From Lutjanus erythropterus (lineage: Eukaryota; Chordata; Actinopteri; Lutjaniformes; Lutjanidae), in NCBI GenBank assembly GCA_020091685.1, contig CM034612.1, positions 24,513,158 through 24,577,157 on the forward strand: 64,000 nucleotides of DNA, written 5' to 3'. A program made the position numbers and the translations under genes. Shown here piece after piece: positions 4,510 through 56,400 of this stretch. How positions within the stretch are numbered: the stretch's first letter is position 1; every line of letters starts with the position of its first letter. The notes beneath the pieces were generated by a model. That model was not told the origin of the DNA. It worked only from the letters and a program-made list of their open reading frames with translations, and made no database searches.

Positions 4510-7500
4510 GTAGGAGGCAAACTGCTCTGTCTTTCTAAGTCTCTCTGTCTGTCTCTGTTAACCCTAATCTGTTTCTATTCTCCTCCTCGCCCGGCTGTCA
4601 GAGGTCTGACCCAACAAGGCCCTCTGAGGCGCTGACCCTCGCTGGCTGTAGTTTAGCCTGTGTGCAAGCCTGTTTTTAGATTACAGCTGAATCTCTACTG
4701 ACCGTGATGTGTGTGAGTCAGTGCCTGAATGTCAACCTGGAAGTGACAGCAGTCTTCCACACTGACCGCTCCATGAAAACTCCAGGGGACAGCATTAGCA
4801 TAATGACCGCCCGTCTTCCGTCCGGTAGTCAGGGAACTTTACAGGCCCGAGGCGACGAAGCCATCTTCAGTCAGTCCAGGAATGAGAACAGACAACAAGG
4901 GGCAAAACAGGACGAGGATGAGGTTTTACTGAAGTCTTACCTCTCTCAAGGACACGGAGAAAAGAACAAGCTACTAAAATAAAGTGTTTAGCATCAGTGG
5001 GTATACAGTATTCCTCACTTGTCTCCATGAATAGCAGGACTGTTATTGCTCTGTCAGTGTCTGTTCCAGCCAATGAAGCCTCACTTCATTTAGTATTTCA
5101 CAATTTAGATATAAAAGCTTGACGAGATGGCAGCCATCTGAGAACATGACACCTGCTATAACTACATGATTGCCGGCATGAAATTAAAGCATATTACGGG
5201 TTGGAGTTTTAATGGCATTTCTGCTTTATTGGGCAGTTTACAGAGAGGAGAGACAGAGGGAGGATGGCAGAATGGAATGGAGATGGTGACAAAGGTCTTG
5301 GTGTGCTGAGTTAGCAAGACACCCAGTGTTAACAGTTACTATAAAACAGAGGTGGTGTACGTCCACATATTCTTTATTCAAGCAGAAGTGCAGATATTTG
5401 TGGAATAAAGGCTCTGGTAAAAGTAGAAGTACTCTTCTACTACTTTTCGTCTTGTTACATTGTTTAGTCTTGCTGCGTCTTTTACAATGTTTTTGTCATT
5501 ACTTCTTTTACGTCGTTTTCACCTTATTACTTCTTTCACGTCGTTTTCACCTTATTACTTCTTTTATGTCGTTTTCACCTTATTACTTCTTTTATGTCGT
5601 TTTCACCTTATTACTTCTTTTACGATGTTTTCACCTTATTACTTCTTTTACGTCGTTTTTGCCTTAATACTTCTTTGATGTCATTTTCATCTTGTTACGT
5701 CTTTTATGTAGTTTTGTCTTGTTATGTTGTTTTTGTCGTTAATTCTTTTACATCGTTTTTGTCTTGTCACATCTTTAACGTTAGTTTTGTCTTGTCATGT
5801 CTTTTATGTCACTTGCATCTTGTAATGTCTTTTACATTGCTTGCATCTCGTTGCTTCTTATACTTCATTTTTGTCATGTTACTTATTTTTGCCGTGGTAC
5901 CTTTTTATGTGTTTTTGTCTTGTCACATCTTTTACGTTCTATTTGTCTTATCACGTCTTTTACATTGTTTATGTCTTGTTATGTCTTTTACAATGTTTTT
6001 GTCTTGTTATATCTTTTACATTCTTTTTGTATTGTCACATTGTATTGTCATTTTTGTCTTGTTACGTCTTCATCTTGTTATGTCTGTCATATGTGATATG
6101 CACTGATGGATACACCAGGGAATGGTCTTTTCTGCGTGGTCTTGTCCTATCCATTGAGAATGAAATTGGTCTTGCTGTTGGGAAGGCTGCACACAATTAA
6201 TAATTCCCTTCAAGTGCATTAAAACTAAAGTAACAAGCTTGTTTTGAAAATGTAAGGAGCAGAAAATACAGATATATGTGTTAAAATGTAAGGAGTAAAA
6301 TTAAAAAGTTCCCCCAAATAATAAATAATAATAAAATAAATACTCAAAGATGCATTAAAAATCTACTTAAGCACAGTCACTAAGTACTTACATTTAGTTA
6401 CTTTGTATCCCTGCTATTAAAACTGCACAGGAAAGATTTTAAAGCAAAATACATCCATGTTAATAATTTCACAAGTCAAAATATGGGGTAAAAGTGTCCC
6501 ATCAACACTAAAGATTCAGTGTTTTTGACCGATACAAAAGAACTCTATTGATGCTTTCTCTCAATTAAGCCCATTAACTGCAAATCTTGTGTACTTGATG
6601 TTCATTATTGCCGACCACTTTCCAAAGCATATGATACATTTTAGGATGATTTCCAACCACGCAGGCAGTCATTAGTTTTAAAGGAAAAAAAATAAGCTCT
6701 TTGGCAGCCAAAACAGTTTCTATGTGGCTGCCAAAGAGTATTGCATTCATAAGCTTTATTGTAAGGAAATCAAATTTGGAAGACAAAGAGCAAATGTTGT
6801 AAAAAGGATAATGCTTAGTGAGTCATTGCTAACCTCAAAGCTCCCATGTATAGAATTTTCTTTGTCGTTACAGCTTTCTTTCAAGGTTTTCTGAGGGCAC
6901 AAGTTTTTGTTTTCTAGAAATATGGGACAATCCCAGTGGCAGCTGGTGCAATCTGTGTGTGGTTATAGCCAACTGATTCTCAGTGCAGGGAGGTGGAGGT
7001 ACAGTACTGGCACGCGTTGCTGTTGGCCACACTGATAGCTGCAGAAACACGTTTTCCCAGAACAAAAACAAATGATTAAATGATTTGCATGCAAAAACCA
7101 ACAGTAAACACACCCAACACATTCTGATCTCAGGTTATTAAACTGCTTTGTCATTGGTATCCCTAGTGTAGATACCTTTTAGAGTCTGAAATGTTTCTGC
7201 CAGAAAGCTTTTCTGACACATGCTTGTGAAATGGTCAGTTTGGTTAAGTTTAAGTTTAACAAATTCACAAGCCAATTCATTGTCTAATATGCATTCTGCA
7301 AACAAAGAAACCTGAAACCCCCAGTACAGAGTCAATACAGAGAGTAAGAATTAGCATTAGCTGTGTCAGCCACTGCCAGTTACAAGCTAACAAGCTGACA
7401 AACAACATAAACAAATAAAAGATGCTAAATACACTAATCATTCTGATACATCTACTAGTCACTGACTTTGGTGCACAACTCCTAATCTGCACCTGGCTGA

Positions 7501-31200: not shown

Positions 31201-34200
31201 TAGCGATGCCCAAACTCACTAAAAATGCACAACAAAACATGCTTTCTCAAAAAACTCTTCAGTTTTAACACAGCATTTAAAATATTAATGAGTGTTTTTT
31301 GTGGTAAATAATGTGAATTCCCAGTGGGAAAAATCCTTACCCACACCTCTTCACCTTATTGATTTTACAAGGAAATAAAGACAGAGAGCATCGACCTATG
31401 ACTCGTGTCCTCACATGACTTTCTAATGGAGCTTCTTAAGAAAGTAACAGACTATGAAACATGACTTTTACAGACATCATTCAGAAATATTTGGAGGTCA
31501 TGTGTTTGTTTCCTTCGTGACTTCTATGTCGTAATCAGATAAAAAGGTGTAAAACTTGGTTTTCACCCTGGTTCCTGTAGCCAGTTCTGTGTATGATGAA
31601 TTGCCCTCTTGAACACATGAGGAGTGACTTCAAAGAGGAATACGTACAAACCTCTTTAGTCGAGCTGTCGTCGTGTAGAGCGCTTGGTGGTGGTCCCTGA
31701 GTTATTTCAGCACTTCATGTCAGCGGCTCTCCCTCCCTCTCCACCCCGGCCAGTGCAGCGCTGAAAGGCCACACTTGTTGTGAGCGGGACGGAGCGGTGA
31801 GGATGCAGGCCACAGTACAATCAATTTAGATTCCTTGAGGAAACCGGGGCACTGCCCTGGAGGGGAATTCAGACCCAGAGGAAAAATAATCAAGAGGTGC
31901 AAGAAAACATTCCTGCCCTTCAGATGCAAAAATCCCTCAGGCTTCTCCCTGCCCCAGACTCCTTTAATTCCTCCCCAGCCTGATCCTTTTCCCTCCTGCC
32001 GCGATCCACTTCATCACTGGCGTCATGGTGAATATGAAATATGCCTCAGATGAATGATTGCTGACTGGATCTGCGCATATTGAACACTCAATATCTGTAA
32101 TATCCTCCAATATCATTATTATCTTCCATACCCATGGCCTAATCTCTATCATGGTCTATGGAGCGACTCAGATAGGAGAAAAAGATAGAGTCAATAAAGA
32201 GATGAGTGTGTGATAATAAAGGCTGAGATTAATAACTCTCCCCCACTATCTGTCTGCCCGTCTTCCCACCTATCTCTCTTCATCTCTCTCTCCCTCTTTC
32301 TGCTTTGGTTCAGTTTCATTCATTTTAGAGTGCTCGACTGGCATGGTGAGAGTGTCCTTACACTGCCAAGGATATTATATAGTAACATAACAAAAGACTG
32401 AGAGATAGGAAGTAATATCACGAACCTCTGATCTGTGGAATCAGTGTGTTAATATACAACAAACAGATAAGAAAAATATATACCTTAAAGAGTGTAAAAA
32501 GTGATATTCCATATATTGAGATTTAAGATATTTTGTAATTTATTGTAAAACCTTTCAGATAATGTATTGGTTTTATATTGCGTGATGCTGTGGCAATTAT
32601 TTCCATATAATTTGCATACATTTATATTTATATATTTTTTAAATAAACTGCAAATATAAGCAAGAAAGATTGTTAGTTTTTACGTATTTTATACAGCACA
32701 CTGCCAACACATTTTCACACAACTCATCCAGTGTGGTCAGTGGCCATATGCTTCAAACTATGATGTTCTACGTACTCTTCTAGCATCGGGTTTTGCACGT
32801 GCAGGACACCTCAGCCAAATTATAAATGATAAATACGCAACATCTAGGTAGACTGTCAAAATAAAGGCACAAAAACTTCAGTAACTTCAATAATCTCCCA
32901 AAAAATTAAAATCTAACAATTGTTATTAATGTCTAGTCAGTGTTTTAGCGTAATTAATTCCCATGCATCCTGTAATCTTAGTCAGCCCTCCTCTGGCAGC
33001 AGCATTGCATCAATCCATGTCCCCTCATGCTGAGCTCCACAGGCAGGAGTCTGACCGGCTTTTTCTACTACTAACAGGGACACTCGCCACAAGTGAACTG
33101 ACTTTATCGTCCCCACCAACTGTGACATGAAATATCCTCCCTTGCATAAGTTATGTACGTAAAGTAACGTAAAGTAACAGTACACTGACCCTGGTCTCCT
33201 TTGTGAAAGCCCTATGTTTGTTTGAGACATCCATCCACCCAAACTCCTCCATATGCTGACTTTCTTGCTTTTTATACTACGTCACCTGACTTCTACAGCC
33301 CATCAAACCTAACACTAGCTGGGCATCTCCTGAAATGACACTACAGGGGTGCCTATAGCATCATAGTTTGTATCTTATAGGCACTGACCAAGCTGTTGTT
33401 GTTGCTGTTTTGAGTAAAACACATTTTACTTTCTATTTCTTCTTGGTGCTTCTTTACTTTCTATTTCTAATTTGACCACCAAGGCAACTAACTTTGATGT
33501 CACACCTAGCATCTAAAAGCTGGGTTCATTAATCAGTATATCAGACATGTTGAAGTAGACCAACTGACACCGTGGCTACTTGGCTCACACCCCAAAACTA
33601 TTGTATTAGATGTATCTTTTACAAAATTATCCTTTTCAGCCAAAGGGGCAAGAAATTACCAATGTATTTCTGTTGTTCTGTTAAACTGGCTAATCACTTT
33701 GTACCAAATGATTAGAAAGGCAGTGTTTAACAGTTAACAGTGTCCAGATCTTCATAAGCCCCTGGTTTAAATTTCACAGCAACGTCTCTTTTTTTCTCCC
33801 TCCAATCCCTCCTTCTCTACCTTTTCCCCGACCAGCCGGAGTTGTCCGGAGCAGCCGTCCTCCACCAGGCCAGGAGGGATCAGGTAGTGGATGCCTGTCG
33901 AGTCTACAGTGCATCCAGCCGTAAACGCAGAGTCCTCACACCATCAGACCTCAAACACCTTGTGGTGGATGAGGATCATGAGCTCATCTACTGCTACGTC
34001 CCCAAGGTGGCCTGCACCAACTGGAAACGTGTCATGATGGTGCTCACAGGCCGGGGCAAATACAGGTGAGTCTAGACTGTTAGATGGGTTCAGAGAGTGT
34101 TGGGGGAATTCATTCCCTTTTTGAAATATATTGCTTTTGGAAATAAAAAGCACAGGCTATGTGTTGTATGATTCAATCCAAGCCAAGTCTAATTTTATTC

Positions 34201-36151
34201 ATATAATCCAACACCACCAATCACAATTTGCCCCAGGGGCTTTACACTCTGTACAGTGAAGGACAACCTTTGTCCTTTAGACCCTTGATCAGGTAATATA
34301 CTCACCAGCAGTGTGAAGTGTTCCCCACCTTTTTTTGTCAGAAATGTAAAGTAGTGGTTCCCAGCATTATGAAACTGTTAGATGCTAACTTTCATATGTT
34401 GTGCAATTTGCATAATTAGCAATAATTAGCACAATCACCCGTATGAACAATATGTCAGCAACTGCTTGTCTGATTCGGATAATACTGGTGTCATACTGGG
34501 GGGAGGGTTGTCAAGGATGCTGAATTCATTTCTGAAAATTTAAACTGGCAATTTGAACAGGTAGAAGCCAAATTCAGTCTCCTGTAGGCCAATTTTGATT
34601 CAGTTCTATTCAATTTAGACGCTTTAGAACACACTGGTCTTCTGTTTTTGACTCATCTGTTCTACTTGTCATTTTTTACTTGTATTATAACCCACTCTCT
34701 CTCTCTCTCTTTCTGAGGTTAGAATTTAACTACAGTCATATTATTCTGGTACTTCCCTCAGAGTGTAATCGGCTGTGCATCAAAATGTACAAGTTCCGCA
34801 TCATTTAGTTAATTGTGCTCATAAACTTCCTATAAAAATATCAAAATCAGCCCACCAGGAGTTGAAGTATGGTTAATTTGGCTGAAATGGCTATTTTGAA
34901 TTTTAAATAGACTGAAATAAGTAAATTTTAAACATCATTTGCATAATTGTGTTCATAAACATCCTATAATTTATAACCGCGTTGAAGTTATTTCAGTAAG
35001 TTATCAGTACAATCGATTCAGTGAGTTCTAAAACTTCTAAATTGACTGGAACTTCTTTTGTTTGGATGTGAAATGTTGTGTTTTGTTTGTTTCTGCACAT
35101 GAAAGCAAAGACAAATTTCTTCCATTTGCACGCACATAGTAGATGATTTTTTCTATTCTGTTTGATTCTGAATCAGCCAAGCAGTTGCTGAAATATTGTC
35201 CATATAGGTGATTATGCTAATTATTGCTAATTATACTAATTACACAAATGGCCCAACACATGCAAGTTAGCATCTGGCGGTTTCATAATACTGGGGACCC
35301 ATGCTTTACATTTCTGATATAAAACTTTGGGGTCCTCAACATTTCCAGGTTCAAAATAGCTCTATTAGCTGGCAAATAGACTATAAGGAAAAAATACCCC
35401 CCAAAAAGGTGTAGTCCAGTATCTCTGCATGCTGGCCTCATTACACTGAAATGTTGTGATGATACAAGGACATGAATGCATAATGTTTGTTTTGTTCTTC
35501 ACTGCCCTTGCATCTCTTTTCCACAGTGACCCAATGGAAATCCCTTCCAATGAAGCCCACATTCCCTCCAACCTGAAGACGCTGAACCAGTACAGCATTG
35601 CCGAGATCAACCACCGCCTCAAGAACTACCTCAAATTCCTCTTTGTTCGCGAGCCCTTTGAGAGGCTGGTCTCCGCGTACCGCAACAAGTTCACCCTCAA
35701 GTACAACTCGTCCTTCCACAAGCGCTTTGGCACCCGCATCATCCGGCGCTACCGCAAGAACGCCACGCAGGATGCTCTGATTAACGGGGCTGATGTCAAA
35801 TTCAAAGAATTCGCAGAGTACTTGGTGGACCCTGCCACGCAGCGTGACGGGCCACTCAACGAGCACTGGCAGACCGTCTACCAGCTTTGCCACCCGTGTC
35901 ACATCCACTACGACCTGGTGGGCAAGTACGAGACGCTGGAAGACGACGCAAACTACGTGCTGCGACTGGTGGGTGTTGGAGACTCTTTGCGCTTCCCGAG
36001 CTACGCCAAGTCCACTCGTACCACAGACGCCATGACAGCCCAGTTCTTCAGCAATATCAGCACTCAGCAGCAGGTCCAACTCTACCAGCTTTACAAGTTG
36101 GACTTCCTCATGTTCAACTACTCCACACCCAGCTACCTCCGGCTGGACTAA
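4424..36151 (+). CDS. chst11: Carbohydrate sulfotransferase 11 (chondroitin 4-O-sulfotransferase 1), exons 2-4, 5' partial
   Basis: Golgi type II membrane enzyme that moves sulfate from PAPS to the 4-hydroxyl of N-acetylgalactosamine in chondroitin, a key step in making cartilage matrix. The join is 4424-4509, 33836-34065 and 35527-36151, all with GT-AG sites. Intron phases are 1 (before exon 2), 0 and 2. The product covers residues 41-352 plus the end of codon 40, numbered by human CHST11, which is also 352 residues. Seen in the sequence: a basic stem (RKRR, 97-100), the 5'-phosphosulfate-binding motif [10 protein letters not shown] (124-133), the 3'-phosphate-binding motif [13 protein letters not shown] (185-197), and N-glycosylation sequons at 205, 223, 321 and 342, where human CHST11 also has them. 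The missing exon 1 should encode the cytosolic tail and signal anchor. The family also contains CHST12 and CHST13, but the near-identity around [19 protein letters not shown] favours CHST11. Confidence 0.97.
5346..6415. mobile_element. Non-autonomous hAT-like element carrying a 28-bp minisatellite
   Basis: The left end is ACAGAGGTGG followed by AAGCAGAAGTGCAGATA and AAAAGTAGAAGTACT, the outer sequence of a common teleost CAGAGGTGG-ended element. The right end is worn (ATCTACTTAAG...TACTTTGTATCCCTGCT). The interior is almost wholly replaced by tandem units (5440-6085). A second copy in inverse orientation lies at 59095-59623. Confidence 0.65.
5440..6085. repeat. 28-bp minisatellite
   Basis: Near-identical units of the form TTACTTCTTTTACGTCGT plus TTTCACCTTA run from about 5499 to 5675, then diverge into TCTTGTTATGTCTTTTA-type units. 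A period of 28 keeps shifting the frame, so all three forward frames stay open and give look-alike Phe/Leu-rich reading frames. They are not proteins. Confidence 0.93.
6697..6738. other. Perfect 13-bp hairpin
   Basis: CTCTTTGGCAGCC (6697-6709) and GGCTGCCAAAGAG (6726-6738) are exact reverse complements around a 16-base loop. The left arm also starts a separate palindrome, TTTGGCAGCCAAA. The stem is short for a microRNA precursor and no longer pairing was found outside it. Function unknown. Confidence 0.6.
6739..9184. other. Intronic DNA without recognised genes
   Basis: A/T-rich sequence with no exon-like segment recognised. The stretch at about 8700-9000 is more G+C-rich and C/T-rich, with overlapping open frames on both strands that resemble no known protein. 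Confidence 0.6.
9185..9263. repeat. (GT)n microsatellite, about 39 repeats
   Basis: Uninterrupted TG run, the longest dinucleotide repeat in the window. Confidence 0.98.
10770..10930. repeat. Dispersed repeat 'GACGCATCCATCCACC', copy in intron 2
   Basis: Contains ATCCATCCACC, then CGTGGACTTTCTCACTCTTT and ATATTACATCACC. The same ordered phrases occur at 13370-13440, 13865-13935, 33220-33290 and 58075-58140, with varying decay. Class unknown; no coding region. Confidence 0.6.
12095..12290. repeat. Dispersed repeat 'GGACAGTTyAC', copy 1
   Basis: GGGGACAGTTTACTATAAAA, then ATCAAAAATACATATTTTCC, TAGTGCTGTTTATCCAT and TTGGTGTGAGCTGC. The same order is found at 51325-51605. This is a familiar teleost interspersed element, probably non-autonomous. 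Confidence 0.7.
12570..12900 (-). mobile_element. LINE reverse-transcriptase 3' remnant (antisense), copy 1
   Basis: The + strand phrases GGGCAGCAGTCTAAGCAAGAC, ATTCCAAGGCGTTGCC and CCAACATGTTCTGGTTC are worn versions of the antisense 3' coding end of a common teleost LINE, whose protein there reads roughly GRPRTRWRD...WERLG...LLRLLP. Too many frameshifts to be coding. Confidence 0.6.
13465..13730 (-). mobile_element. LINE reverse-transcriptase remnant (antisense), copy 2
   Basis: Has GGGATACCAAGGTGTTACC and, on the minus strand at 13631-13651, codons for HELWVMT, a phrase from the C-terminal region of a fish LINE ORF (the ..[11 protein letters not shown].. segment). The middle of the family sequence is missing. 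It shares its tail with copy 3, including GAGAGACTCArACTTTTrGC and CTCTGTTGGTCCAAAAAA. Confidence 0.65.
13810..14275 (-). mobile_element. LINE-associated repeat unit, copy 3
   Basis: Starts like the sequence at about 13313 (GGTTTCCCA, GGGACAAGAGCATTGGTCTCC) and ends like copy 2, so 13313-13730 and 13810-14275 are a diverged direct duplication of a composite repeat. Minus strand 14156-14176 again encodes HELWVMT. CCTAGGAAGGTGTCCAGGAG at about 14060 is the antisense of the family's RRPRGRP-preceding region. An A-rich run (14255-14270) follows. Confidence 0.65.
14290..17285. other. Intronic DNA without recognised genes
   Basis: Contains GT-rich patches (14558-14580, 14785-14810) and a CA-rich patch (17065-17175) that open spurious frames. 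No exon, RNA gene or clear element end was recognised. Confidence 0.6.
17286..18250. mobile_element. Foldback element with ~140-bp inverted arms
   Basis: The left arm (about 17329-17482) starts CCATGTCATGACACCT and the right arm (about 18112-18250) ends AGGTGTCATGTCATGG. Matching phrases run inward in inverted order (GTGTTTATGAATACT against the right-arm complement GTCTTTATGAAGGCT; TTATGTCATTTTTmATGCAA in both). The interior holds about four 49-bp units ending in CTTGACATTAATCAAG and a direct duplication containing GTGTCATGAATACTTTCC. It has no coding capacity. This is a known teleost repeat type. Confidence 0.8.
19403..19896. mobile_element. Non-autonomous hAT-type element
   Basis: The right end, read on the minus strand, is CAGGGGTGGGCAATTATTTT, a classic hAT terminus; the left end CAGACCTGGGAAAATTG is its worn partner. 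The inside has GTGGCCTGCAAGGCC and GTCTGGCCCACAGCAGAC phrases of the family. Open frames inside are short and unlike a transposase. Confidence 0.7.
19900..21474. other. Intronic DNA; possible conserved stretch
   Basis: Holds the short (ATT)n run at 20585-20609. The sequence from about 20270 to 20680 has mixed composition and homeobox-like TAATTAG/CATTAATTGC words. No gene recognised. Confidence 0.5.
21475..21613. repeat. ~46-bp tandem repeat, three units
   Basis: Units begin TGATCATGCCAGCTTAACTT, TGATCATTCCAGGTTAACTG and TGGACCATGCCAGCTTAACTT. Units 1 and 3 are nearly identical and unit 2 is diverged, which suggests a 92-bp higher-order step. Confidence 0.8.
23229..23704. mobile_element. Short inverted-repeat element (CTGGGCGATA ends)
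   Basis: The left end is GGCCTGGGCGATAG and the right end is ATATTGCCCAGCTCTAGG, inverted with respect to each other. The inside has ATATCACGATATAACGATAT, typical of a widespread vertebrate, mainly teleost, non-autonomous DNA element. Confidence 0.75.
25211..26090. mobile_element. TIR element (TACACTCTTAGAAATAA) with internal tandem units
   Basis: A perfect 17-bp inverted repeat: TACACTCTTAGAAATAA at 25211-25227 and its complement at 26074-26090. The interior (about 25320-25790) contains repeated blocks of the form GTAGATGAAACCCTtrGAAT plus ATAAAAGGGTTCTT, 60-70 bp apart. A known teleost non-autonomous family; no transposase. Confidence 0.85.
27172..27385. repeat. Direct duplication of ~110 bp
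   Basis: Two blocks share CACACAAACC, then ACATGAGCATGGnGnGAA, then ATTTTAACCCAAACCATGAT and TTTCTGAACnTAACCAAG. The second block has a small CAACG expansion (27303-27321). Confidence 0.8.
27760..28190. promoter_or_regulatory. Candidate conserved non-coding stretch in intron 2
   Basis: Non-repetitive, balanced composition, ending just before the CA run. It contains an octamer-like ATTTGCAT word twice (28068-28075 and 28154-28161). There is no exon signature. Proposed only because it stands out from the repeat-rich surroundings; conservation is not tested. Confidence 0.25.
28226..28273. repeat. (CA)24 microsatellite
   Basis: Uninterrupted AC run. Confidence 0.97.
29370..29700. repeat. Degenerate tandem repeat 'GTTATTATCTTGnGGGAACAAGAT'
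   Basis: Blocks of GTGGGAACAAGAT followed by a GTTGTGCACA-type phrase and then CAAGTTATTA recur about every 50-60 bases with heavy divergence. The 123-codon open frame here is a by-product. Confidence 0.7.
29710..33189. other. Intronic DNA without recognised genes
   Basis: Contains relics related to the CATTCACCTGCAG-type repeat near 30180-30480 and CATCACTGCAATATTTTG-type A/T-rich sequence. The segment 31730-32170 is less repetitive and is noted among the findings. No exon or RNA gene seen. Confidence 0.55.
33190..33365. repeat. Dispersed repeat 'AGACATCCATCCACCC', copy near chst11 exon 3
   Basis: CTGGTCTCCTTTGTGAAAGC, then GAGACATCCATCCACCC, CTGACTTTCTTGCTTTTTAT, ACTACGTCACCTGACTTC, the fullest copy of the family also seen at 10770, 13313, 13815 and 58040. 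Confidence 0.65.
33836..34065 (+). CDS. chst11: chst11 coding exon 3 (5'-phosphosulfate-binding loop)
   Basis: The 230-nt exon follows a long C/T tract and CAG. It begins [16 protein letters not shown] and encodes residues 69-144 plus two bases of Ser145; the donor is CAG|GTGAGT, phase 2. It carries the RKRR stem cluster and [14 protein letters not shown], which holds the Lys/Thr-type loop that contacts the 5'-phosphosulfate of PAPS. There is no stop or frameshift. Confidence 0.96.
34066..35526 (+). other. chst11 intron 3 (1.46 kb)
   Basis: Bounded by GTGAGT and CCACAG. About two thirds of it is one foldback element (34338-35317). The final 200 bases before the acceptor are open in the downstream frame from about 35456, but this is read-through intron, because the acceptor and the Ser145 split codon match the family. 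Confidence 0.93.
34338..35317. mobile_element. Foldback element with ~140-bp inverted arms inside chst11 intron 3
   Basis: The left arm (about 34338-34480) begins TCAGAAATGTAAAG and holds TTATGAAACTG, AGATGCTAACTT and CAATAATTAGCACAATCACC. The right arm (about 35175-35317), read on the minus strand, gives TCAGAAATGTAAAG, TTATGAAACCG, AGATGCTAACTT and CAATAATTAGCATAATCACC in the same order. The arms are about 85-90 percent alike by eye. The interior (about 700 bp) is A/T-rich and non-coding. Confidence 0.85.
35527..36151 (+). CDS. chst11: chst11 terminal coding exon (catalytic domain and stop)
   Basis: After TTTTCCACAG a T completes Ser145, and 207 codons run to TAA at 36149-36151. The exon encodes most of the sulfotransferase fold: the 3'-phosphate motif [17 protein letters not shown], the [21 protein letters not shown] segment typical of the HNK-1/chondroitin sulfotransferase family, and the C-terminal [15 protein letters not shown]. 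The exon is clearly richer in G+C than the flanking introns. This composition creates a long open frame on the opposite strand that is not a gene. Confidence 0.97.
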
Positions 36152-44500: not shown

Positions 44501-44914
44501 TGATGTTTTCACAATAAAATAACACTGAAATTCCCAGAGCCTCCCGGTGCTGCTTATTTCATGTGTGGATGTGAAATATGTAACATACCAGCTGTACATG
44601 ACCTCTGACACAGAACAGTCCACGCAGCACTTGAACACACCATACAGGACATGAATAAAGCCATGAATTCAGCTCGCTTCCAGGAACTTCCTCTACATGT
44701 CCATCAAGATAATGGTGATCCAACTCAAGAGGGTAAAATACTAGCACTGGTACACACACTGTAAGGATAACACAGTGTGAGTCCACACACAAGGAAAATG
44801 ATCATCATTATTTATAATCCAGTAATTTTGCTGGAGTTTGTTAAAAGGTTTTCCTGAGTCAGTACAGATAGTATTACTGCCACATCAAGAAAAGAAAAAT
44901 TGATCAGTATCACA
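41512..44914. other. Intergenic DNA
   Basis: Contains GT/CA-rich patches (41845-42005, 42130-42152, 43980-44010, 44140-44182) and a TTTA run (44258-44277). The open frame at 42834-43094 resembles no protein I know. The 44190-44560 stretch is more G+C-rich and ends near an AATAAA (44513), so a transcribed 3' end is conceivable but unsupported. I looked here for upstream STAT exons and saw none. Confidence 0.5.
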
Positions 44915-45076
44915 TTATAACATGAAGAGTTCACTGTTATAAAAAGATATAGTCTTTATCTCATTATAAAATTAAATGTTTCATGTTATAACATGGTAAC
45001 TTATTGTTATAACAAAATATTTCATGTCATGTATTAACTTTTCGTTATACTAGTTATCTTGTTATAAAATGATAAC
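44915..45076. repeat. TTATAACATGATAA-rich array, left segment
   Basis: Irregular repetition of TTATAACATG, GTTATAA and ATGATAACTTA words, both strands alike because the core is near-palindromic. Continues at 45618 after an inserted element. Confidence 0.8.
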
Positions 45077-45617
45077 TTAAAGGAGAAGTCTGTATGTATA
45101 TTTATTGTAGTAAATCATAAAATGTCCATATGTCATCAGAGATTATGGAAACATGTTGAAATATTTGCTTCTCTAACAACAAAGTTGCAGCTGCAGTGTC
45201 CCTTGAAATTTGTGTTCCAGGCCAGAATAACTTAATTTGCCCATTTCACATTAATTAGAGTTCATATTAATGTCGAATGTTTGCTGAATGAGTTAGTGTC
45301 TCTTAATGAAGAGAAATCATTAGTAATATTGCAGAAGACGTAGATGTTTGTGATATTTAAAGTGAGAAAAATGTTGATGGAGTTTGGCAGACAGTGAGAC
45401 AGACAGCCACTTAACTAAAACTAACTAAAACTTATTTCAGAGCAGTGGGCTTTTTTGTCTTTGCATTACTTTACGTTGACAGACAACTCACTTCAACAAT
45501 AAATCATATATTAAATAGGATTTCAAGCTAATGAATATACAGTCAATGGCTCCAACTCTCTATCTGGACTGCAGTATTCATTTTTGCACATGCAATTGTT
45601 ACATATTGCTCCTTTAA
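45077..45617. mobile_element. TTAA-ended inverted-repeat element, 541 bp, inserted in the TTATAAC array
   Basis: The left end is TTAAAGGAGAAGTCTGTATG and the right end on the minus strand is TTAAAGGAGCAATATGTAAC. The array resumes immediately on the far side (AATTGTTATAATGTG), so the element landed in the array. It is non-coding and has the same TTAAAGG terminus as 40738-41511 but a different interior. Confidence 0.85.
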
Positions 45618-45815
45618 ATTGTTATAATGTGCCTTTATAAAGATATAACTTATCAACTTATGAGAACATCACATGAAACATGAAACATTTCAGGTTATAA
45701 TGTGATAACTTAAATTGTTATAATGTGACATTATAAGGATATGAGTTATTGCATTGTTATAACATGATAAGTTATCGTTTTAACATATAACATTTCACAT
45801 TATAATGTGATCATT
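45618..45815. repeat. TTATAACATGATAA-rich array, right segment
   Basis: GTTATAATGTG, ACATTATAAGGATATGA and GTTATAACATGATAAG words. It ends about 140 bases before the STAT1-like exon. Confidence 0.8.
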
Positions 45816-45952
45816 TTACTTTTGATACTTTAAATAAACCCTCTGACACAAATGTACTTTTACTCAAACTATTTTTAAAGTATGGTTTATACTACTGTGA
45901 CTTAAATAAAGAATCTGAATCAATCAGTCTTTTTCTGTTTAATGACCTCCAG

Positions 45953-46028
45953 CTCCAGAGCCTATGGACATGGAGAACCTGGAGAGGACAGGCTACATGA
46001 AGACAGAGCTCATATCTGTCTCAGAAGT
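45953..46028 (+). CDS. stat1: stat1-like exon with the activating tyrosine
   Basis: The 76-nt exon lies between TTTTTCTGTTTAATGACCTCCAG and GTGAGC. CT completes an alanine codon begun upstream; 24 codons follow, then GT of a split valine codon. The tyrosine of TGYMKTEL corresponds to human Y701, whose phosphorylation drives SH2-mediated dimerisation. No upstream exon ending in a phase-1 donor was identified. Confidence 0.88.
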
Positions 46029-46256
46029 GTGAGCATCAGTCCCTGACACACATTTAAAATCCCAGCATGATAGATTTAGTTATTGATTGATTGATCGATC
46101 AGAGTTAACGTAGGTGTTTTTCTGTACCTTTGGTCCAAACATCCGTCCAGACTACAGGACAACATGATGCCAGTGTCTCCTGATGACTACAAGGCTCTGG
46201 CGCAGTACATCAGTCCCGGAGACATGGACGCTGTGGTGAGTAACGCTTCATACTGA
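45953..46256 (+). CDS. stat1: STAT1 C-terminal transactivation domain fragment (two exons, orphan)
   Basis: Two exons joined in frame (45953-46028, 46151-46235) match the C-terminal end of STAT1, the interferon-activated transcription factor. Seen: APEPMDM (first residue split across the missing upstream exon), GYMKTELISVSEV, then LQDNMMPVSPDDYKAL. Human STAT1 has APEPMEL, GYIKTELISVSEV and LQTTDNLLPMSPEEF. The Jak-phosphorylated tyrosine (Y701 in human), the K-x-E SUMO site next to it, and the serine of the P-x-S-P motif (S727 in human) are all kept. Reading on past the second exon gives VSNASY and a TGA at 46254-46256. No SH2, DNA-binding, coiled-coil or N-terminal STAT exon was seen in the window, so this cannot make a full STAT. 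It is either a partial gene duplication that kept its introns, and so not a retrocopy, or an assembly artefact. The intact frame argues that it is young or still used. Confidence 0.88.
46151..46235 (+). CDS. stat1: stat1-like exon with the PxSP serine
   Basis: The 85-nt exon follows a 122-bp intron with a T/C-rich tract and TCCAG. A completes the valine codon; 28 codons follow, ending GDMDAV before GTGAGT. The serine of PVSPDDY matches human S727, needed for full transactivation. The exon could splice on to a tiny last exon, as in human STAT1 (Asn-Thr-Val-stop), or end by read-through, because a TGA at 46254 is followed by AATAAA at 46340. Confidence 0.85.
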
Positions 46257-48254
46257 GACACTGCTGCTGTCCACAATCACAATCTGAGCTAAAAATCTTC
46301 TCCAGGTCAAAGAAAACATGTTTGTTTGGTTCACACCTCAATAAATATCACATCATCACGTTTTTTTCAGTGAACATGAAAATTGTGATGGAAAACTCAT
46401 CATTTCCACTAATCATATCACATATTCAAATTCAGTCAAAATAATTGTATTTGTACTTTTGTGCCACATCATGCAGCTCTTGTAGGCGACTGAAACACTT
46501 GTGATGTCAGGTGGTACAGCTGATGAAAAAACAGTCAAATGATATTTTATCATAAATGCATGAACTTCCTAATAAACTTACTTCATTAGAGATTGTTGAC
46601 AAAAAAAAAACACTTTTTTGTGTTTGAAATAAAAATGCAATAATTCATCATATTTCCTGTCATCACTGTCAGGTGGTACAACTGATCACAGTCAGGTTGT
46701 GAGACCAGGTCAAATATTTCATATAGAACTTAAACCAATACATAACAGGTTGAAGTGAACAAATTATTTGTAACTATGATGTTAATAGTTGTTGTACTGA
46801 TACATTCATTTACATGTTTGTATAATTATTTGGGGTATTTAAATGTAAAATTGGATGCTAAAAATTCTAAATACCTGGCCAATATAATAGACAAATACTA
46901 CTGCTTGCTATATATTTTAAAACGGGACAGGAAGTTAGAGATCTCACGATGTCAAATCTATAATATCATGAAGAGATTTAGACAATTCAGAGAAATCGCT
47001 GCATGTAAGAAGTGACATTCAATGTCTGTGACCTTTGACCCGTCAGTCAGCACTGCTTTAAAACCTGCATATGACTGAAAAAAAAAAAAACACTATTATA
47101 ATGATGATGATGTGGTATTTGTTGGGGTCTGTACCAAACAAACGTTTTTCATCTGGAGAAGAAGATTTGAAAATACATTTCATTGCTGACTCTGTTCACA
47201 GTAGTACATTCTTAGCTTTCAGTAAGTACAATTACAATTGATATGTGTTATTTCATGGAAAGTATTAAAAATTATTTTAGGATAAATAAAAGTTGATTTA
47301 CCACAAAATCATCATATCTACGTTCAAAATTCAACTATTCAATTAATTTATCTTATAAACCAAAACACCATCATTAAACATAATCAAATTTAATTAAAGA
47401 TTTTATTTTTTTTCATATTTGTTTTTAGGGATTTTGAAGGCAGCACAGCAGAAAAATAAGTGATGATTCAGGTGCAAACAAAATCAAACAAAATCAGAAT
47501 GCTAAGTTTTATATTCAATTTGCACTCAAAATAAAATAAAAATTACAAATCAATCTTGAATCTTTTTTAATATCCACGACATACACAGTGAACCAGAGCA
47601 GCCTGTAGGGGGCGTTGCTCTGCTGGTGCCTTTAAAGACAACACATGTCCTCAAGCAGGATTCAATCCAACACTGAGTTGAAGTTAAATCTTAGCAGGTC
47701 ATCCTCTTGAGCGTCTCTCTGCATCAACTTCAGCTCAGAACTAACCCAAGGACTGAACCTGCTTCCTCAGAACTTCCTAAGTCAATGAATCAGAGATACA
47801 TGAAGACTCTCTTAAAGCTTTTCACTTTCACTAACCCCAAGCGTCTTTCTGAGAGCCTTTCAATCTTTCCGTTGTATTGATGAAACCTGGGGCCTCAGAA
47901 CCTCTGAGTGGTGATTTTACTTCTTAAGCCAATGAACCAGAGACACTGGTGAGCTCTGTGTTTCACTCTTTCCTTTGGAAACAGAAAACACAAAAGTTGT
48001 TCTTTGTGTCTGTAAGGGGACTTTTATTGACATACACTCTCACCCATATACATACAAACACGCATGATAACACACACTTGCATACATACACACATGCATG
48101 CAACAGCGCGTGCATGTGCACACACACACACACACACACAACACAACCTCAATGATACATCTACTGCTATTAATACTTCTGGCAATATGTTAGGGAGACT
48201 AGTCAGCAGCGAGCGTCAGGAACACTCAAAACTTTGTGCGGAATTTTCTAGTTA
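46257..48254. other. Intergenic DNA after the STAT1-like exons
   Basis: Has a local duplication of GTCAGGTGGTACAnCTGAT (46507 and 46671). AATAAA at 46340-46345 could serve the STAT1-like transcript. The 86-codon open frame at 46755-47015 is A/T-rich and not recognised. CA-rich runs lie at 48050-48140. Confidence 0.5.
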
Positions 48255-48560
48255 ACATTATAACCCCATGTTATAACATGAAATGTCTTGTGTTAGAAAG
48301 TGATAACTTATGTTTAGAACACACAGTAAAACACTCCACATTATAATGTGATAACTTTGTTTGTTATAACATAATGTTAACATGTTATAACAATGTTTTA
48401 TGTCATAACTATAAGCTATCACATTATAACATGAAGCATTTTACATTATAATAACAAATATATTGTTATGACAAGAAAAGTTTGTTATAACACGATAAGT
48501 TTGTATGTTGTAACAAAGTTGAAATATCTTGTTATGGCAGAAAAAACAAAAACTTTTTAC
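48255..48560. repeat. TTATAACATGATAA-rich array, downstream of the STAT1-like exons
   Basis: Same word set as 44915-45815: CATGTTATAACATGAAATG, CATTATAATGTGATAACTT, TTGTTATAACACGATAAG. Confidence 0.8.
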
Positions 48561-49639
48561 ATTATGATGTCATACTGATCGTTTTTTCTTTTTCTGGCCT
48601 TGCAGCAATACACTGCCACCATCACCTCACCCCATCATTACCAGTCAGTGCTCTGTCTATGGCTCCCTTTGCGGGGGGGCATCTCTGAATGACTTCTATT
48701 TACAGGGTTTTACCCCTTCAAATGGATCTAATTGACAGGATATCTTCATCTATTCAGCTGAAGCATCTGCACACTTGTGGTGGTGTTTTTTTTTTTCTTC
48801 TTGATTGAAATGAACTGAAAGTTCGAGGGGAGTGTGTTGAGTGCAAACATAGACTGTGTCCAAGATCACTCCCTCACTCCCTAAATAACAGATACTCACT
48901 GCTTCACTCTCTAATGAGCTGTAAACTGAGAACTTGGTCGCTTATGAATCATCGTCATTCTACGTTATTACTGGTCATTTTTTCATCTATAAAAGGCAAC
49001 ACATTGCATTGTGGGATTGTTAGTAGAAAGCGGTACACATAATATGGACACAAGTTTTCACGTTTCATTGTGTGAATTTTTGTGGGTGCTGTTAAATGCA
49101 TATATTCCACACTATTTTAAAAGTATATACTGTAAGGTAAATAGAGTGCTTTAAAAAATAGAAAAATAGAAATATTAGCATCTCATGAAGCTGGTAGAAA
49201 ACCAAAATAATGAGCTACATTACACTAAAGGTCCAGTCAATCCAGTCATGTAAAATATTGATTAATGCAGCTTTAAAGTGGTGATTCACCCAGAATGCAA
49301 ACATTAATGTTCTCACCTAAAATATCAATTTTTGAGACTCACTGTTTTGTGGTGATGATGAGACAGATATCTCAAAGCCTGGGGGCATAAACCTAAAGCC
49401 TGAGGTTATTAGCATGGCTAGATACTGCTAGCTATATGTTAAGAAATGTGTTTTAATCTAAGTGAATTGACCCTTTAAAAATCTTCATATCCCAGCTGGC
49501 AAAGTTCAGTTCCCAAAATGATCTGGGAGCATTTGTTTATGATTTTGGGAGTGTTTTCTGATGTACAGCCAATGTTATTCTTACGTTTTTCCTGGCTTAA
49601 AATTAATATTTTAGTTACAGTCCTATAATGTCCTGGTAA

Positions 49640-53094: not shown

Positions 53095-53480
53095 TAAGTT
53101 ACGTTGCGTTACGTTGCATTCATTGTGTTCGTTGTATTTGTTACGCTACATTATGTTACGCTGCATTGTGTTGCATTGTGTTACTTTGTGTTACATTACA
53201 TTACATTATGTAATGATGCGTTGTGTTACTTTGTGTTATGTTGCATTACGTTGTTACGTTACATTTCATTATGTTACGTTATGTTACATTATGTTACGTT
53301 ACATTATGTTAAGTTACATTATGTTAAGTTACATTATGCTACATTATATTATGTTACCTTGCATTGCATTGTGTTGTGTTGCGTTACTTTGTGTTTCATT
53401 GCGTTATGTTGTGTTATGTTACGTTACGTTACATTACATTACATCACATTACGTTACGTCACATTACATTACGTTCATCA
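53095..53480. repeat. Degenerate 5-bp-based array (TTACG/TTACA/TTGCG)
   Basis: About 380 bases of G-T-T-A-C-G, A-C-A-T-T-A and T-T-G-C-A-T words, mostly in steps of 5. The 5-bp step keeps forward frames open (three overlapping frames of 91-185 codons rich in Tyr/Leu/Cys), so none is a gene. A shorter relative lies at 57870-57950. Confidence 0.9.
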
Positions 53481-56400
53481 CTTGATGTGGCAACTCACCA
53501 AACAAAAGTCACATTACACAAGTCATGTGACACACATAATGACATTAAAACTTTTAATAACATTTTGCTTTCACATGAGATACATCCATCCCACTTCCAG
53601 CCAGCTTCACAACAATATGGAGAAACCTATCAAAACTGAACCTGATGTTGCCTTTTCATAGGTCAAAATTTGCATGACCCAATGGAAGTTAAGGTTATTT
53701 AGAAGGTTAAGGTTTTAGCACAGAGCTGATTACATTGCCCCAAGTAGCCAAATTTAAGTGAAGGAAGTATCATGTTATCAGTTAAAACCAGTAGTGTTTC
53801 AGGACCCCAGTATGCAGAAATGTTCAAATACAACATTTTTGGAATAACATTTGTGTTGCAGTAGCTCCTTCAAACTTTGCTACTTTTCTCCATTAATCTG
53901 TTATTTTCTCGGCTTTATTGCTGACCTCACCTCACCTACAACTGAATATACTCATAAGCATGCAAGTGTGGGGTTTGAATTAAAGAGCAGTGGTTCTTGA
54001 GACGATCAATAATGTACATGGCATCCTTCGACCACTGATTAGCAGGGACACACTGTGTAACCACCCCAGGAAGATTGGAGGAGAAGAGCTGTGCTTACCC
54101 AGCTTGGACTTAATGTTGCTCCTGGCTAATGTGCGGTCAGGAAAATTAAATCACCAAAATGGGACTGGCCAAACAATGGGTAACCAGAGACTGTTGTGCC
54201 CACAAAGTGAGAGCTGCTCCACCACAGGATCAAGCTGTTGCACTTGACGGACAGACCGTACTCCGAGTGGACAGGACTCATCTTGCAAGACTCTGGTAGG
54301 ATGATGGAAAGAGGACTCTGTGTTTTGATCGATGATGCTTCGTGCAAGAAGACAGTCAAAGGTGATGGACAATTGAGATGTTGAACTTTTTATGTGAAGA
54401 TGTAAATCCTATTATGTTGTATAATGATAAAACATTACCTTGATACCTTGATACAGCCTCTGAAAGATGGACAGATGTAACACTCGCAGGAGGACAGTTA
54501 CCTCTTAAGTAAATACTACAGGACAAATGAAAGAATAGATATTTAATTTTTTTTAAGTCTGTCTGGAAACAATTACCAGGCGCCCATATAAGCTTTGCAG
54601 CAGGTCATACAGGTCTTTAAGAGAACATCCCTTCCTAATGTACATTTAATATAACTGATGGGGGACAAAAACACAGTCCTTCTGTTCATAAATGTATTTC
54701 AAAGTTTATCTGAAGTTAATATGAAGCTTCAGCTGTCTGAGTCACACAACTCAAGTGGGTGTCTCCCAAAGAAATAAGCTTTTTGGTATAAGAATCTCTC
54801 TTTGTATTTCCCTTGACAGTGGTTCTCTGCTGAGCTGCAGGGGAGGGACAGCAACAAAAAGGGAATTTTTGAACTAAAAAGACTGTAACTTTGAAGATAT
54901 CTACTTGATTTGACTTACTAAGGCTGAAGAAACCTTGACATTTGTGCACAAATTGTGGATTTTGTTCCCCGTTGCTTTCTGTTTCGCGTTCACTCAAGAG
55001 TTTCCTCTTAAGACTCCTTCACAAAGCTGCTGAGAGACACTTTTACTAAACAACTAAGATCTCACCATGTCTACAGTGACTTGGATTTTACAGGTGTCTT
55101 GTACAGGTGTGAAATTATATTCATTACTACACAGGGGAAAAAATCGTAGTATCTGCTATCTGTGTTTTCAAAGCCCCCAGGAAACAAAAAAAACTTCCGA
55201 TATAGCAACCTACACACTGAAAATGTCAAATTAGTGCATAGGACACTAATGGTACAAACTTAAACAAGCTAACAGCTGTTAGCTTTTCTTCCACACTGAT
55301 GTTGTCATTTTATTGCCCGGGATCGCCTCCTGATGTGTAAAACAAGTCCCTCTTGACACTATTTTGCCGTGGCATCATTGCTGCATAAGACTATGAGGCA
55401 GTAATTCTATTTTTTGACTGCTCTGTTTTATACAACTGCTTCAGTTTGAAATCTTGTTTCAGCTCACGACATTGTATGTGGGGCTCATGTTAATGTTGAT
55501 GGAACTTTACAAATCTCTCCACTGCAGTTGTGGTGACATTGCAGCAGGTGTTTCACCATCCGTTGCCTTGACACTAGAGACCCCTTTCACATTACACAGT
55601 CATTGTTCTTATAAAAATATGTAGGTTAACTTAAAGGGCATGTAATCTGTAGCATTCCAGCAGTGTTCCATATATATTCAAACAATCAATATTTGATCAA
55701 AGCACAACTGTTTTAGCATCAAAATGCTATTTTCCCAAACCCTACTCTGCTAAAAATGTTTCCCCACATGACCTGACATAGGTTTCCGCATCAGGTGCTC
55801 TAATCCACGTCACCGCTGAGTGGGATTTTCCATGTGAAAAACCCAGAAAAGAATGTAGATGGAGTCGTCCTTTAACATGGTAAATTCTAAAGTTCAGGTA
55901 AGGTCTAACGAAAGATCAGACATAAGTTATCTTGTCTTCCTGCTCCACCATAAAACGTACTGTACAAGGATGAGAATAATTACTGTGGACCGTGCAGAGG
56001 AATCTGAGCAGTAGTGTGAAACCTGAACTGACACACTGCAGTAAATAAATGTGATAAGATGGTTTTCATGCCTCGTTATCACAGATAACATCAGATTTAC
56101 TGAGGTCTCTTCAACTTTCCCATGACTGGGATAAGCAGGCTTGTCACCACAGTGTTACAGGTCACACCAGCAACTTTTGATTCTCAACCGCACAGCTCCA
56201 ACCTCCAGGAAAGGCACTTTTCTCCCCAGCGGCTGCACACTGGCAGCAATAAAGATCTGTCAATGCACAAGTGTTAGGGAGGGTTTTGCTGTAAAACAAT
56301 AATTTTTTTCGTCCATAAAGATGAAGTGTTGGCAGGATATCCAAACTGAATGGATTACCTGATATGATGATAAATCACCTGCTGATTTATGCAAATGATG

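Follow-up and report, generated by a model that had tools for sequence, protein, structure and literature searches.

Two stat1 exons downstream of chst11 in Lutjanus erythropterus as a probable passenger of a Helitron/Helentron-like transposon

STAT1 exons and their surroundings in the window

The stretch of Lutjanus erythropterus DNA that was analysed (64,000 nucleotides, hereafter the window) contains exons of chst11 and, downstream of them, two C-terminal exons of STAT1. Human STAT1 protein was used as a tblastn query against these 64 kb, and two matches with a combined E of 1e-9 were obtained: APEPMDMENLERTGYMKTELISVSEV at 45952-46029, 69% identical to the human protein, and HPSRLQDNMMPVSPDDYKALAQYISPGDMDAV at 46140-46241. 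The peptide joined from both matched Pfam STAT1_TAZ2bind (1.4e-13) and STAT1 in PDB (8.9e-14). An earlier annotation made from the letters alone (the sequence-only reading) had described this exon pair, and these searches agreed with it that the exons are real. Their position about 9.8 kb downstream of chst11, whose end lies at ~36151 according to the Sulfotransfer_2 match, was also borne out, as was the preservation of the Tyr701-, SUMO- and Ser727-like positions, judged by eye. That reading had further noted that no other STAT exon was nearby. Indeed, tblastn detected no further STAT1 exon in the 64-kb window, the next best match having an E of 1.4; with only two exons detected, the N-terminal, coiled-coil, DNA-binding and SH2 exons were absent as an ordered series. 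An ordinary stat1 gene with its remaining exons directly upstream was rejected on this ground.

The features of the region are given below. P coordinates refer to the parent stat1 region read in the gene direction, and C numbers designate contigs.

33758..34069, + strand: chst11 exon, open frame with the start of the sulfotransferase domain (Pfam Sulfotransfer_2, 8e-13)
35450..36151, + strand: last coding exon of chst11 (Pfam Sulfotransfer_2, 1.9e-61)
44871..45813, no strand: left host flank, AT-rich palindromic array of TTATAACATG-type units, inverted relative to the right flank
45814..48251, + strand: probable 5'-truncated composite rolling-circle insert with captured stat1 DNA, A before and T after
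45814..46281, + strand: stat1-derived block corresponding to parent P12501-12955, 91.4% identical by sequence comparison
45953..46028, + strand: stat1 exon, human residues 687-712, Tyr701-like and SUMO-site-like positions, donor GT kept
46029..46138, + strand: stat1 intron, native acceptor lost (alignment with 12 other copies, parent included)
46139..46241, + strand: stat1 exon, human residues 713-748, TAZ2-binding, Ser727-like position (tblastn, Pfam, copy alignment)
46308..47222, + strand: element interior in common with the C24:15.77M copy (84-89%) and partly with C24:2.57M (83-87%)
47216..47826, + strand: element interior matching the stat1 downstream region P19369-20019 (85%)
47834..47948, + strand: element interior in common with a copy at C7 (96%)
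47988..48251, + strand: 3' terminal part of the element with a CA microsatellite, ending TTTTCTAG
48252..48611, no strand: right host flank, inverted arm of the palindromic array (inverted alignment)

Similarity to the parent stat1 gene and to three other copies begins at 45814, and the pieces P12501-12955 and P19369-20019 keep the parental order in the window. The insert ends with CTAG at 48248-48251, followed by T, and the host flanks that meet at it read ...GTGATCA on the left and TTAACATT... on the right. The window copy has no 5' terminus; therefore, its own transposition was read from the 3' end and the A and T flanks alone. The search of the genome for a paralogous empty site of this insertion returned none.

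The two arms of the palindromic array are 72-80% complementary, and their inverted alignment scored 136, compared with a maximum of 62 in 100 shuffles. The TTATAACATG-type motif was matched 13 times in the window, always within 44915-48501, and 0 times in 26 other loci that included the other retrieved stat1 copies. Because of this absence, the arms were read as the host site and not as the carrier of the stat1 piece. Distant relatives of the array were seen at C11:19706625 and C8:19081939. Other repeats in the window were a sequence at 45520-45620 that has a sharp edge after ~98 bases and recurs elsewhere at more than 30 places with 84-90% identity, a degenerate 5/10-base GTTAC-type tandem array at 53142-53492 and a 28-base minisatellite at 5432-6045. 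Scanning with Rfam gave 0 matches. Among 88 ORFs of the insert region, Pfam found only the TAZ2-binding match and weak matches to DUF7751 and HTH_28 (E ~0.008), and 0 families were found in 73 of the 89 downstream ORFs of at least 55 aa.

Parent stat1 gene and dispersed copies

The assembly searched was that of the window itself (937.6 Mb, 444 contigs); loci retrieved from it carry L numbers. A search of the whole assembly with STAT1, which the sequence-only reading had proposed for finding the parent gene, located a near-complete stat1-like gene at C24:16860333-16847569 (minus strand), in which residues 1-748 were matched in order, with frame breaks. A glutaminase exon (PDB glutaminase, 7e-11) lies downstream of it at C24:16.837M, and in human GLS is the neighbour of STAT1. 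Contig C126 carries a partial duplicate of the parent that is 95% identical. The parental frame is broken at residue 71, a break that C126 lacks, and in the transactivation-domain (TAD) exon, a break that other copies lack; these could be either assembly errors or real decay. The STAT gene on C19 presumably resembles stat3 and that on C6, read in L035, presumably resembles stat4; the STAT gene on C2 is nearest to STAT2. In lumpfish, stat1a neighbours mstn/nab1a and stat1b neighbours stat4, and neither is placed next to chst11 (PMC10556531). A piece downstream of the parent stat1, P16418-16900, is repeated seven times ~2.1 kb apart at C24:16380448-16393532 and gave 1988 first-look candidates genome-wide, 40 of which were scored.

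The window exon pair was found to have many relatives. Its 304 bp matched 13 genomic places at 83-100%, the window included, while SH2-region DNA gave 41 matches and human STAT1 protein gave 67 (60 of 156 candidates scored). All 13 of the first, 24 of the second and 34 of the third set were clustered into places. Excluded from the SH2-region matches were 2 in STAT genes on C6 and 15 short ones (34-52 bp, E 3e-8 or worse); excluded from the protein matches were 31 in the parent, C126 and the STAT genes on C19, C6:9.33-9.43M and C2:22.35-22.37M, as well as 2 at places already counted. At least 34 stat1 places resulted, or at least 33 without the parent, some of which rest on little sequence (51 bp at C19:27.86M). 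Thus, the exon pair, which had been considered a singular orphan, belongs to a set of dispersed partial stat1 copies that numbers at least 33.

In the protein search, for which 60 of the 156 candidates were scored, there were 36 matches at dispersed places and none of them lay before human residue 444, so that among the matches listed there is a strong tendency for dispersed copies to lack the exons before residue ~444. N-terminal STAT1 exons were found, among the matches listed, only at C24:16.85M, on C126 and in other STAT genes. Many of the copies are decayed, and order or orientation is scrambled in several; the T2 piece (P19104-21414) is inverted in most other copies relative to the parent and the window. 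A few copies also match the parent intron upstream of the element described below (P1306-1606 and P7940-8185, 67-75%), and these matches were taken as repeats. Crowding towards chromosome ends was observed: 35 of 37 5' ends of the element, 33 of 35 3' ends and 31 of 33 stat1 places lay within 20% of an end, where 40% would be expected (20-kb bins, parent included, only contigs of known length). The window itself lies at C22:24.56M of 28.69M.

Termini of the element

An intron of the parent stat1 gene harbors an element whose 5' end, which is decayed, lies at ~P8208 and whose 3' CTAG, at P9462, is located a short way ahead of the exon of residue ~450. The 5' end of this family consists of TTCAG with the hairpin AGTGTGCC..GGCACACT; a CA microsatellite, an inverted subterminal repeat and a 3' CTAG are further features. 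The left terminus TTCAGTGTGCCTGAGGAGGCACACTATATATAATCC is common, with small changes, to L011, L016, L017, L018 and L020, the outer flanks of which are unrelated. The right terminus, ending ...GAAATTTTCTAG, was found at P9462 in the parent, at 48251 in the window, in L010 and in other elements. After the CTAG, the parent, L011, L015 and L020 continue into stat1 intron, and the window and L010 continue into unrelated DNA. Spans with both ends measured 612 bp (L043, A before TTCAG and T after CTAG) and 1108 bp (L044, G before and T after), and 1123 and 1532 bp inside the stat1 copies L011 and L020.

In the retrieved loci, TT preceded CAG at 16 of 17 5' ends (at L016 after a shift by hand), and A preceded TT at 11 of 16. 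CTAG was present at 10 of 13 3' ends, and the next base was T at 11 of 13. Genome-wide, the 5' end pattern was matched exactly 15 times and the 3' end pattern, including CTAGT and with up to 2 mismatches, 88 times, each with 0 matches in the control. The 3' end of the window has more than 2 mismatches to this pattern and is outside the 88; when window positions 48146-48251 were used as the query, 118 first-look candidates were obtained, and all 40 that were scored matched.

The folding of one copy of the 5' hairpin gave z -5.1, and 0 of 200 shuffles were as good. The repeat AGTGTGCCTGA occurs inverted near the 3' end of the parent's element, 25 nt from the end, and with one mismatch in the window. 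At the 3' end, folding gave a weak stem-loop for the parent (z -0.93, with 34 of 200 shuffles folding at least as well) and none for the window (z +1.35, with 189 of 200 doing so). Since a clear 3' stem-loop was not found, the element is named Helitron/Helentron-"like" and is not assigned to one proven subclass. Judged from its termini, it appears to be a short non-autonomous, HINE-like rolling-circle transposon. The genome contains 15 matches to Helitron_like_N, with open frames of up to 3033 aa (on C20, C7 and C12 and at C4:27.5M, among other places), and hence rolling-circle machinery is present in it. None of the listed 5' and 3' element ends was found beside these frames. Within 40 kb of the starts of large contigs, Helitron_like_N was seen at C12:7961, C7:12003, C7:32730, C10:36178 and C23:30110, two of these matches being in open frames of ~3000 aa, and it was also seen on C115 and C317.

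Position of the element ends relative to stat1 exons

Of 83 candidate 5' ends, 40 were scored; 10 of these precede stat1 exons by 0.2-2.0 kb and share their strand. A further one is within 10 kb of stat1 exons on the opposite strand, and 29 lie elsewhere. L017 provides an eleventh 5' end of the same-strand upstream type, outside the scored 40. Of 89 3' ends (the 88 and that of the window), 17 are within 15 kb of stat1 exons: 8 are upstream of them on the same strand at 0.4-1.3 kb, the parent included, 7 are downstream on the same strand at 2.3-12.4 kb, the window included, and 2 are on the opposite strand. Accordingly, the other 30 scored 5' ends and the other 72 3' ends are away from stat1 exons, and either terminus was demonstrated at a minority of the 33 dispersed places. 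At C1:46.00M, the bases after the downstream 3' end resemble the flank in the stat1 intron, and this end may be another internal one; the flank after another downstream 3' end looks unrelated to stat1.

The 8 upstream and 7 downstream same-strand 3' ends form the pattern expected if copying started at a 5' end in the intron, bypassed the CTAG and ended later. The following course of events is proposed. The element sits in the stat1 intron before the exon of residue ~450, with a decayed 5' end. In at least one transposition, copying would have started at the 5' end and run past the 3' CTAG through the rest of stat1 and kilobases beyond, as the junctions suggest. The composite would then have multiplied by copy-and-paste. 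For some copies the end is a comparable 3' terminus 2-12 kb beyond the exons, where transposition presumably terminated, and copies would afterwards have lost pieces and gained other repeats. The window holds one 5'-truncated copy with its own CTAG end, located in the AT-rich palindromic array downstream of chst11. Capture of stat1 by 3'-end bypass of a rolling-circle element, followed by rolling-circle spread that left a pseudogene fragment in the window, is therefore considered the probable explanation, with a probability of about 0.85. Such events have been quantified for Helraiser, for which capture of flanking DNA was estimated at about 11.7% of events in the intact state and at least 36% without the hairpin (Grabundzija et al., PMC4778049).

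Coding state of the exon pair

The sequence-only reading had called the two exons well formed. This holds for the donor GT, which is canonical, and does not hold for the second exon, whose native acceptor is AA (46137-46138). Alignment of the window with 12 further copies showed CCAG at this site in the parent and 8 others, and CCAA in two, the window and L013; L020 and L021 were uninformative. At 46150, where an acceptor had been placed, there is a cryptic AG that belongs to the ancestral exon. Reading past the window exon 46139..46241 leads to a stop at 46254-46256.

Changes private to one copy were counted over all copies. They occupied 24 of 1879 coding cells and 20 of 1162 intron cells, with 7/625, 6/628 and 11/626 at codon positions 1, 2 and 3, respectively; these counts are small and partly come from near indels in L015. 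The window has 1 private coding change, at a third position, and 3 in the intron. Given the small numbers, the private changes are compatible with unconstrained DNA and reveal no clear coding constraint. Compared with L011, the window shows 11 differences in 174 coding sites and 8 in 106 intron sites. When every copy was compared with L011, the differences leaned towards third positions, which was read as constraint on the parent lineage. Because upstream exons are missing, the native acceptor is lost and no sign of constraint was seen, the window copy most likely does nothing, and it would not be expected to be expressed. The exon pair is very probably a fossil passenger and not a working part of a gene.

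Alternative explanations

A functional role was considered for the pair, either as an orphan transactivation-domain gene or as a decoy spliced onto another transcript; action as a decoy and splicing onto another gene had both been raised by the sequence-only reading. Both exons have an open frame, the donor is canonical, use of the cryptic in-frame acceptor at 46150 (junction 46028/46151) would skip four residues, and private changes slightly favor third codon positions (11 versus 7 and 6). However, the native acceptor is lost, private changes in coding and intron cells are as given above and few in number, no upstream STAT1 exon is present in the window and the same exons are scattered among many decayed copies. 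The decoy idea thus found no support, and a functional pair is highly improbable. It is also very doubtful, if slightly less so, that some of the at least 33 SH2/TAD copies, possibly including that of the window, are transcribed and that spliced fragments or antisense or small RNA dampen the parent stat1 in the interferon response; if this were true, a rolling-circle transposon would have spread a regulator of antiviral signalling in Lutjanus erythropterus.

Plain segmental duplication, or another rearrangement of the stat1 3' half that involved no transposon, would account for the retained introns, the inclusion of downstream intergenic DNA and the scrambling of several copies, and both element ends were demonstrated at a minority of places; nevertheless, it is unlikely in view of the sharp common 5' and 3' termini that occur at many places with differing flanks and of the consistent strand relation of the element ends to stat1 exons. 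Pack-type capture by a cut-and-paste transposon, with the arms at 44871 and 48611 as terminal inverted repeats, is quite unlikely as well. The inverted arms do flank the stat1 piece with the complementarity given above, but the insert ends inside them with a rolling-circle 3' end at 48251, and no target duplication was noticed; this candidate was rejected because the arm motif is absent from the 26 other loci. A processed pseudogene or an assembly error is hardly conceivable: the missing upstream exons, and nothing else, speak for it, whereas the intron is kept and aligned across copies, 33 dispersed places carry stat1 pieces and there is no N in the window. Both a processed pseudogene and an assembly chimera were accordingly rejected. 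The retained intron bears out the view of the sequence-only reading that the pair was copied from stat1 at the DNA level, and no other exon of the gene was detected with it.

Relation to known rolling-circle elements

Gene capture by Helitrons is established (PMC4778049), with bats and maize named as examples (PMC4067079, PMC5148889). Helraiser, reconstructed from bats, copies host DNA beyond its 3' end to new sites, ends with CTAG-3' followed by T and spreads by copy-and-paste (PMC4778049), as is proposed here for the stat1 element. Unlike Helraiser, the family described here has TTCAG at the 5' end together with a subterminal palindrome of the Helentron kind, its 3' hairpin is weak and the captured DNA consists of stat1 3' exons in a fish. 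HINEs and Helentrons share with it a subterminal palindrome, which lies 2-4 nt inside their 5' end and recurs inverted near the 3' end, and microsatellites in some elements; they prefer TT (PMC4067079), and the stat1 element may do so too. In contrast to them, the stat1 element has a 3' CTAG, folding gives no clear 3' stem-loop and the inverted repeat of the parent's element lies 25 nt from the 3' end, compared with ~38-60 nt (PMC4067079). Proto-Helentrons of Phytophthora have a 5' TT and a 3' CTAG and insert between A and T (PMC4067079). The stat1 element has these end motifs and may likewise insert between A and T, but it has a vertebrate host and is known here from non-autonomous copies. 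FoHeli1/2 of Fusarium, which are Helitron2-like, have a 5' TCAG directly with a hairpin, an inverted copy of which lies near the 3' end, but end with ATTTT instead of CTAG (PMC5148889). The termini of the stat1 element resemble HINE/Helentron and Helitron2 elements at the 5' end and canonical Helitrons or proto-Helentrons at the 3' end.

Judged from search results, the literature search found no published capture of stat1 and no capture by a fish Helitron; the portion of PMC8232201 in which Helitron, STAT1 and capture occur speaks of STAT1 binding sites only. What is new here is the stat1 cargo, the fish host and the mixed termini, Helitron gene capture itself being known.

The donor site and both ends of the element were seen in a single genome, and the stat1 element offers a natural case for the 3'-end bypass model. 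It is probable that a vertebrate rolling-circle element took up the 3' half of this immune transcription-factor gene and carried it to dozens of places; in such genomes, STAT1-like matches and reads mapped to stat1 may stem from transposon passengers. The combination of Helentron-like 5' and canonical 3' termini bears on the relationships of these lineages.
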